DNA of 11,880 bases from NCBI GenBank assembly GCA_005878685.1, contig VBLN01000108.1:2748-14627 (forward strand), read 5' to 3'. The position numbers and the translations under genes are program-made. Below are positions 7,230 to 8,174 of the stretch, piece by piece. Below the pieces are notes generated by a model. The model did not search any database, was not told the DNA's origin, and saw nothing but the letters and a program-made list of their open reading frames with translations. Positions within the stretch are counted from its first letter, which is position 1; the number at the start of each line of letters is the position of its first letter. The stretch is from Deltaproteobacteria bacterium. Its GTDB lineage: Bacteria > Desulfobacterota > Binatia > UBA9968.

Positions 7230-7302
7230 GGCCAGGTAGCTCAGTCGGTAGAGCAGAGGACTGAAAATCCTCGTGTCGGCGGTTCGATTCCGTCCCTGGC
7301 CA
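7230..7302 (+). tRNA. tRNA-Phe (anticodon GAA)
   Basis: A complete 73-nt cloverleaf. The acceptor GGCCAGG (7230-7236) pairs with CCTGGCC (7295-7301). The D arm is GCTC/GAGC with loop AGTCGGTA, and the anticodon stem GAGGA/TCCTC holds loop CTGAAAA, giving anticodon GAA at 7263-7265. The variable loop is GTGTC. The T stem GGCGG/CCGTC (one G-T pair) holds TTCGATT. The discriminator is A at 7302, and CCA is not encoded. Its 3' half is repeated at 8141-8174, so the gene looks like the attachment site of an inserted element while remaining intact itself. Confidence 0.97.
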
Positions 7303-7391
7303 TACCCTTTCTGGTCGATACGAAAGATTTGGAAAAGCCTCAAAAAAATGAAAGGACCCAAGCATGACACTGGCCACACAAAAATGGCCGG

Positions 7392-7421
7392 TTGACACAC
7401 CTGATTGTACGGTGGGAGAAT
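7392..7421 (+). promoter_or_regulatory. Candidate promoter of the mini-element ORF
   Basis: A perfect TTGACA (7392-7397) is followed after 18 nt by GAGAAT (7416-7421, four of six consensus bases), upstream of the ORF starting at 7483. Just before it, GGCCA (7372-7376) and TGGCC (7385-7389) form a small inverted repeat. The -10 is mediocre. Confidence 0.35.
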
Positions 7422-7482
7422 TGCTTTTGTCAGCGAAGATTGATTCCGACAGAACACCTAGAATCTTTCCTAGGGAGTCAAA

Positions 7483-8019
7483 ATGGCCTCGTCAAATCCA
7501 GAATATTCCCAACCCCTAAGAACAATTGGTCAGGCATTGGAGGCATTGCATATCGAAGCCTTCGACTTGGAGAGCGAAGGCAACAATTACATAGTTCGGA
7601 TCAAGGGTAACGAACCCTCGATAGAAACATCTCGTCAAAGGAATTTTCTAAAGAATATTGTTGAGGAGGTTTGGGGGTCTCTGCCTCCCGATTGGGAACT
7701 ATTCCCCTCTCCAGTGCCTGCGCAACTTCTGCGCTATACTCCCTCAGATATTAACCAGTTGGAGACCGAGGGGCGCTCTAAAGGCGGCAACCCGAATGCC
7801 ATGCCGGATGCTCACAGGGTATCCCAAGTTCTACGCGTCATTGGTGATTATTTGAATCAAAAGCATGCTCGTGTTTTCGCCATTTCCTGGGCTAGCCACT
7901 CTGTATCCATTACGTACGAGACCACAGAGGGTAGCCACGAACGTGAAAGATTCTCAGTGGCTACTCTTTACGACCTTGGGATTCGCATGTCCACGCGGAG
8001 ATCCAGCCGTAACAAGTAG
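7483..8019 (+). CDS. Hypothetical protein with an internal duplication, inside the tRNA-Phe mini-element
   Basis: A 178-aa protein whose family I do not recognise. It has no signal peptide and no membrane segment. The ATG is preceded by AGGGAG (7472-7477) five nt upstream, a good ribosome site. CCTAG (7457-7461) and CTAGG (7470-7474) could form a hairpin touching that site. Two parts of the protein align without gaps: LRTIGQALEALHIEAF (12-27) and LRVIGDYLNQKHARVF (117-132) share L, R, I, G, L, H and F at the same spacing. Each is followed by a beta-like stretch (YIVRI at 36-40, VSITY at 141-145) and then a charged RxR segment. The simplest reading is two copies of a small alpha/beta module joined by a Pro-rich linker (about 65-110). 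It ends in a basic tail. Function unknown. Confidence 0.7.
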   Translation: MASSNPEYSQPLRTIGQALEALHIEAFDLESEGNNYIVRIKGNEPSIETSRQRNFLKNIVEEVWGSLPPDWELFPSPVPAQLLRYTPSDINQLETEGRSKGGNPNAMPDAHRVSQVLRVIGDYLNQKHARVFAISWASHSVSITYETTEGSHERERFSVATLYDLGIRMSTRRSSRNK

Positions 8020-8047
8020 TGAGGTGAATCGTTGTCGAGCGCCCAAG

Positions 8048-8077
8048 TCTGTATCCGTTGATTCTGTATCCGTTGAT
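8048..8077. repeat. Perfect 15-bp tandem duplication
   Basis: TCTGTATCCGTTGAT occurs twice head to tail (8048-8062 and 8063-8077), between the unknown ORF and the right-hand tRNA repeat. It is in no credible gene. It may be a replication-slippage product or a pair of iterated binding sites. Confidence 0.9.
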
Positions 8078-8140
8078 AGTACGACCAATTTGGCCGAAGT
8101 TTTGTCATTTCTCATTACGTTGGTCATTTTGCGCTTTTTG

Positions 8141-8174
8141 CCTCCTGTCGGTGGTTCGATTCCGTTCCTGGCCA
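8141..8174 (+). repeat. Orphan copy of the tRNA-Phe 3' end (attR-like)
   Basis: This repeats tRNA-Phe 7269-7302 over 34 nt with differences at three positions (8145 G to C, 8152 C to T, 8165 C to T, relative to the tRNA). It is in direct orientation. No acceptor 5' strand, D arm or anticodon arm precedes it, so it is not a functional tRNA. Confidence 0.85.

Follow-up and report, generated by a model that had tools for sequence, protein, structure and literature searches.

The DNA between a tRNA-Phe gene and a partial copy of its own 3' end in a genome of the Binatia is probably a CIME-like remnant of an integrative element that has kept one gene. The window in which it lies, by which is meant the whole stretch of 11,880 nucleotides that was analysed (contig VBLN01000108.1 of assembly GCA_005878685.1), is compared here with the genomes of relatives. 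The evidence consists of the repeats that bound the unit, an empty site in a relative, integrase-bearing elements at the same site, other inserts in which no integrase was detected and a truncated integrase in one relative. It is likely that the unit is a remnant of an ordinary kind, notable for the unusual lineage that holds it and for its extreme size.

The unit behind tRNA-Phe

The features of the unit and its flanks are as follows.

6439..7194, + strand: gshB, the upstream flank (frame open from 6313)
7230..7302, + strand: intact tRNA-Phe (GAA), its 3' part forming the proximal attachment core (Rfam RF00005, 72.7 bits; ARAGORN 7229-7303)
7269..7302, + strand: proximal repeat (attL-like core), starting on the 3' side of the anticodon stem and reaching as far as the discriminator base (repeat search)
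7483..8019, + strand: 178-aa ORF, the cargo gene, from a multi-copy family without a name; an alpha-beta-beta module occurs in it twice
8048..8077, + strand: perfect tandem 15-nt direct repeat (TCTGTATCCGTTGAT twice), near the distal end (repeat search)
8127..8140, + strand: 14 nt on the inner side of the distal repeat, putative half-site contributed by the element (by likeness to G005 and L093)
8141..8174, + strand: distal repeat (attR-like core), 31/34 (repeat search)
8263..9342, + strand: 2-hydroxyacid dehydrogenase, the downstream flank (homologue directly 3' of tRNA-Phe in G007)

The claim, made in a preliminary description of this DNA, that the last 34 nt of tRNA-Phe recur downstream was borne out. 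Positions 7269-7302 are present again at 8141-8174 in direct orientation with 31 of 34 identities, and none of 200 dinucleotide shuffles of the window contained a match at the stringency of the real repeat. Across the source genome as searched (G000; 507 contigs, 80.6% complete), a 25-nt piece of the core with up to three mismatches matched only the two copies in the window, and the reversed-pattern control gave no matches. The tRNA-Phe of the window is identical at 73 of 73 positions to that of several relatives and the three differences between the repeats are therefore assigned to the distal copy. The size of 872 bp originally given for the unit holds as the start-to-start distance of the repeats, whereas the DNA between them (7303-8140) measures 838 bp. 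The G+C content of this insert, 0.476, equals the lowest value among 838-nt stretches taken in 100-nt steps (mean 0.539, sd 0.023).

The insert contains a single ORF of note, of 178 aa, and a search within it for an integrase fragment found none. This agrees with the initial picture of a unit with one gene of unknown family and no integrase, as does the lack of any match to the 178-aa protein in Pfam, PHROGs, NCBIfam and PADLOC. The suggestion that the ORF has its own promoter and ribosome site fared less evenly, in that GGGAG is visible before the ATG at 7483 but promoter-like sites do not exceed chance, numbering two in 7200-8300 against 1.2 expected. A stretch of 12 nt at 7900 resembles the tandem 15-nt repeat at 8048-8077, and to take the latter for a recombinase arm site is no more than conjecture. 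In the upstream flank, the gshB frame that begins with the ATG at 6220 is interrupted 30 codons later by an in-frame TAA at 6310 (window 6220-6312), which may reflect either a truncated gene that restarts near 6439 or a sequencing error.

States of the site in relatives

A search for gshB in the 25 genomes of this Binatia family (source included) gave matches in 19, and tRNA-Phe was found by ARAGORN in 15 of these 19 loci, that of the source included, with flanks of up to 1.5 kb. Longer stretches around the junction were obtained for 17 relatives, none of them from the genus of the source. In G007 a homologue of the dehydrogenase (73% over 358 residues) starts about 0.1 kb past tRNA-Phe, which is the same spacing as that between the distal repeat of the window and its dehydrogenase. 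With this homologue directly behind tRNA-Phe, the site in G007 is empty 3' of the tRNA. The upstream side is not constant, since the gap from gshB to tRNA-Phe is 2.4 kb in G007 (L065) and 1.1 kb in G005 (L063), so that the 5' DNA has changed too.

Other relatives have larger elements at the junction. In G009 a 430-aa tyrosine integrase ends at tRNA-Phe and is accompanied by further genes and a distal repeat (32/34), the whole unit measuring 9,669 bp. G008 has tRNA-Phe, another integrase, a gene for an Eco57I-type methylase (PF07669) and a perfect distal core in a unit of 10,445 bp, and in G019 a third integrase adjoins tRNA-Phe, the contig breaking off within about 2.3 kb of the tRNA. All three integrases belong to PF00589 (Pfam). 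As judged from these loci, tRNA-Phe behind gshB is an insertion site in the Binatia family. The idea of insertion at tRNA-Phe is strongly supported by the G007 site, by the integrases of G008, G009 and G019 and by other repeat-flanked inserts, and the comparison of the junction in relatives that had been recommended revealed an empty site (G007), larger elements (G008, G009) and other cargo (G005, G014, G023).

The site in G008 bears on the question of decay. At its distal repeat, a stretch of 326 nt that takes in the core matches the 3' ends of the tRNA and of the integrase gene of the element at 88% identity, and a fragment of a second integrase lies directly past the repeat (protein match of 83% over 82 residues); no third core was found beyond this fragment. 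It is read as the stump of a second, related element, which would imply tandem insertion and erosion at tRNA-Phe. The truncated second integrase thus indicates that decay does occur at this site.

In the class, 148 genomes were scanned for a 32-nt core, up to three mismatches being allowed. Of the 49 with matches, seven have a pair of copies on a single contig: G000 (872 bp), G014 (729), G023 (1,377), G005 (2,446), G009 (9,669), G008 (10,445) and G094 (4,197), the last being the only such genome outside the Binatia family. Among the seven contigs an integrase was found only in G008 and G009. In the other five units no integrase fragment was detected when three integrases, all of the tyrosine type, were searched against 305 open fragments (phmmer --max, E < 1), the sole match being one fragment of G094 with an E-value of 0.14. 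That no integrase fragment was found in these five units weakens a simple picture of gradual decay, and this is the main brake on confidence in the reading as a remnant.

The contents of the small units are diverse. In G014 a gene for a HigB-like toxin (PF05015, 1.8e-17) and an HTH_3 gene (2.3e-12) stand between two cores of 34/34 that are 729 bp apart (unit at L081:381-1143; core positions are those of MGSI01000095.1, from Deltaproteobacteria bacterium RIFCSPLOWO2_02_FULL_57_26). The same dehydrogenase adjoins the unit on its right side and a further insert, cut by the contig end, lies on its left; a tRNA gene was sought on this contig and none was found. The arrangement is probably a tandem array. 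The unit of G023 has a 175-aa ORF without a Pfam match and that of G005 has ORFs of 313 and 114 aa, the longer being distantly homologous to a protein of the G009 element (24%, 3e-15).

These units may also be seen as minimal cassettes moved in trans, that is, single genes or toxin-antitoxin (TA) pairs with tRNA-derived cores which are served by the integrases of larger elements and never had one of their own. Such a reading would account for the size gap on the paired-core contigs, where in five of seven the units measure 0.73-4.2 kb and no integrase was detected, while in the other two they measure about 10 kb and include one, and for the array of G014 with its HigB/HTH pair between two cores and a further insert to the left. 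The small units are tidy, with one HigBA-like TA pair in G014, one gene in the window and one gene in a further unit at a tRNA-Arg of the source genome (see below). This tidiness counts against a remnant, because deletions at random would be expected to leave behind a larger number of broken genes, if selection did not remove them. We nevertheless consider cassettes moved in trans rather unlikely, as no identical unit was found at two places, the tRNA-Phe core occurring only twice in the source genome.

In the distal copies identity with the tRNA starts at the 3' side of the anticodon stem, as had been noted at the outset for the window, where the repeat was likened to an attachment core. It starts slightly earlier in G008 and in the viral contig L173, and the G008 copy, which reaches back into the anticodon loop, shares most tRNA sequence. 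A complete second tRNA-Phe gene as source of the distal repeat, initially named as something that would refute the proposal, was rejected, as none was present at any distal repeat examined and the 5' half of the tRNA is absent in G000, G005, G008, G009, G023, G094 and G014 (two). An origin that is not site-specific, whether the 3' end of the tRNA was duplicated in place or the assembly is at fault, with the gene arriving separately, is highly improbable. A simple tandem duplication of 72 bp does exist at tRNA-Cys of G005 and the source assembly is fragmented, but the core boundary recurs in six other genomes with unrelated inserts, in two of them with integrases adjoining the tRNA, and the G007 site differs from the window by the insert.

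Just inside the distal repeat, 14 nt are identical in 8 of 14 columns across G000, G005 and L093, a 30/34 repeat on contig JAUYJC010000098.1, where a tRNA gene was sought and none was found. Pairs among the three agree at 9-10 of 14 positions. Likeness of this degree was reached by none of 20,000 random draws for the triple, which was one of 120 possible and was picked after the data had been viewed, and a best pair of at least 10 over all 45 pairs has a chance of about 0.02. The motif is absent from the other seven distal flanks. The common 14 nt hint at a shared recombinase, which would be compatible with erosion and with mobilisation in trans alike. They might be taken in favour of cassettes, but the seven flanks that lack the motif speak against this and a shared half-site would be equally expected from remnants of related elements. 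An exact 32-nt core is also present in one viral contig only, L173, at 8729-8760 (IMGVR_UViG_3300000272_000003, a 33-kb contig), with no tRNA gene in the stretch examined, and is possibly a phage attachment site.

Copies of the 3' part were also sought up to 1.5 kb downstream of 28 tRNA genes of the source genome, and a clean non-tRNA copy was found for two of the 28, tRNA-Phe and tRNA-Arg(ACG). The last 43 nt of the latter (contig C440, L297:558-2045) recur 1,414 bp on with 39/43 identities, the best of 200 block shuffles reaching 25/43. Between these repeats lies one 313-aa ORF with only a sub-threshold Fib_alpha match in Pfam, and the G+C content of the unit is 0.454 against 0.524 downstream. 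Behind tRNA-Thr(CGT) (L147:1501-3073, G000:C90) a degenerate copy with an identical block of 49 nt and a diverged 3' end lies 1.45 kb on, and is possibly a further insertion or a tRNA pseudogene. No trace of an integrase was found in the tRNA-Arg and tRNA-Thr units (86 fragments, best E 0.15), and G004 has no 3'-part copy after tRNA-Arg within 3.8 kb. In G004 and G005, 60 of 85 tRNA genes were checked to 1.5 kb and no repeat-flanked unit was found, the tRNA-Phe unit of G005 exceeding the flank used. Matches of at least 20/30 in these two genomes were neighbouring tRNA genes, the duplication at tRNA-Cys and one 20/30 match behind G004 C21:39322, which is at no tRNA and is taken as chance. The search for other repeat-ORF-repeat units at tRNA genes that had been proposed thus gave a second single-gene unit, at tRNA-Arg, and no identical unit at a second place. 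That second unit, with no integrase trace, is in keeping with cassettes moved in trans; the tRNA genes checked in G004 and G005 are not.

The cargo gene and its family

The window ORF is a real gene, as proteins of 78% and 54-56% identity to it exist. A profile of 38 sequences (E 1e-12), searched against 143 genomes of the class with at most 24 candidates per genome scored, detected the family in 16. All 16 are among the 25 genomes of one Binatia family, and the number of matches per genome, in which pieces are included, ranges from 1 to 16. The source genome has 15 dispersed ORFs of the family, and these copies, at 25-54% identity to the window ORF, are old paralogues. By reading of ORFs, most of the other copies in this genome seem to be lone genes among unrelated neighbours, and in relatives copies are also paired or tripled. 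In the tree the window copy groups with a metagenome protein, P0002 (78% identity), with support of 0.98, and the wider group consists of single copies of G004, G010 and G011, all at non-tRNA loci. No relative of the ORF was confirmed by close alignment in GTDB contigs and IMG/VR, from which records of the source genome or its near kin were possibly left out.

When 23 family members were compared with Pfam, only single weak matches were obtained (best E 0.036). The 178-aa protein is internally duplicated, its residues 6-45 aligning with residues 108-160 (hhalign probability 94.9, E 4e-8), and a structure model has alpha-beta-beta in each half. That it is a small two-module binding protein is a guess. 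Some members (L015, L016, L018) have an N-terminal part that was judged by eye to be zinc-ribbon-like (alignment A5; G000 and 15 relatives).

The surroundings of 97 distinct copies at 92 loci were examined, these being the copies in fetched stretches and not all profile matches, with some loci stopping early at contig ends. No tRNA lies within 1.5 kb of 94 of the 97. The other three, each within 300 nt of a tRNA, are that of the window, one 5' of tRNA-Leu in the source genome and one at tRNA-Met in G004; two of them sit 155-180 nt past the 3' end of the tRNA in the same orientation. A distal repeat was looked for at the G004 copy and was absent. The window copy alone among the 97 has tRNA-derived flanking repeats, and two others have other direct repeats (16 and 35 nt). 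It could be argued from the dispersed ORFs of the source genome, from the up to 14 matches, pairs and triples in others and from these three copies near tRNAs that the ORF family is itself mobile and inserts beside tRNA genes, with the repeat as a by-product. This is very unlikely. By a rough estimate about one in 97 would be expected near tRNAs, so that the excess is marginal, and the age of the source copies, the missing distal repeat in G004 and the restriction of tRNA-derived repeats to the window copy all speak against it.

The possibility that the ORF is an element-specific gene is ruled out by the distribution of the family, with its many copies away from tRNAs. The preliminary description had stated that its view would be refuted by relatives with the ORF at a non-tRNA locus and without flanking repeats, and in part this is the case, in that members of its family stand at many such loci. 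Because they do so without tRNA repeats, the ORF looks like cargo derived from a chromosome-resident family and not like a core gene of an element.

Origin of the unit and comparison with known systems

In the preferred reading, that of a remnant, an element would have entered the 3' half of tRNA-Phe by the action of a tyrosine integrase, the tRNA being rebuilt and its displaced 3' end becoming the distal repeat. The element would later have lost the integrase and all else except one cargo gene, itself derived from a family resident on the chromosomes of this lineage, and this gene would have remained whole as the distal repeat diverged to 31/34. This scheme implies that the insert of the window formerly contained an integrase and that selection retains the gene; the attachment sites may perhaps still recombine. 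Of the two origins proposed initially, a deletion scar with one gene fits best, and a satellite-like cassette moved in trans is possible, with no direct evidence for it.

A broader form of the latter would hold that in the Binatia family tRNA genes, and tRNA-Phe in particular, receive one-gene or TA-pair cassettes of 0.7-4 kb with a tRNA-derived core and a short element-specific half-site, which are inserted and lost in trans through the integrases of larger elements at the same site, and that the source genome holds two (tRNA-Phe, tRNA-Arg). This we regard as unlikely. If true, it would be the chromosomal equivalent of dif modules and would make tRNA genes the basis of a minimal cassette system. 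As a remnant, the unit would indicate how far a tRNA-integrated element can shrink when both cores and an intact gene are retained. Empty, occupied, tandem and eroded states are found together at one site of an uncultured lineage, and an unnamed protein family without a known domain, expanded in one Binatia family, is brought to view. No report of such units in Binatia was met in a literature search of limited width.

Genomic islands and prophages integrated at tRNA genes use tyrosine integrases and have the 3' part of the tRNA gene as attachment core. The site described here has the same core, with integrases adjoining the tRNA in G008, G009 and G019, but unlike an autonomous tRNA island the window unit was found to have no integrase of its own. 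Phage satellites carry an integrase plus regulatory or packaging genes, whereas the window unit is a single ORF without a PHROGs match. A working analogy, and not membership, can be drawn with the pdif (dif) modules of Acinetobacter, which likewise place a gene between short recombination sites with no recombinase of its own; those modules use Xer sites and not the 3' end of tRNA-Phe as boundary.

In Dehalococcoides, 15 ssrA islands without an integration module are reported and are proposed to be possibly cis-mobilizable (PMC3146451). The resemblance is that these islands stand in tandem between repeated copies of an RNA gene's 3' end, some without an integration module, but they involve tmRNA, a serine recombinase and 20-bp repeats, as opposed to tRNA-Phe and a tyrosine integrase here (PMC3146451). 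CIMEs are described as decayed ICEs or IMEs which retain attL and attR, have no integrase or transfer genes, and occupy sites also used by complete elements, in tandem with remnants (PMC5704250). Set against this description, the window unit differs in its length of only 872 bp, in its single gene and in the absence of a parent integrase relic. As regards descent by decay, no parent relic was found in the window, G008 has a truncated integrase at the corresponding position, and the tandem arrangements of G008 and G014 are consistent with accretion of the CIME type. Like the CIMEs of that description, the unit has no integrase or transfer genes (one 178-aa ORF of note, no family match, and no tyrosine-integrase fragment found) and is flanked by attL- and attR-like repeats at a site used by the integrase-bearing elements of G008 and G009.
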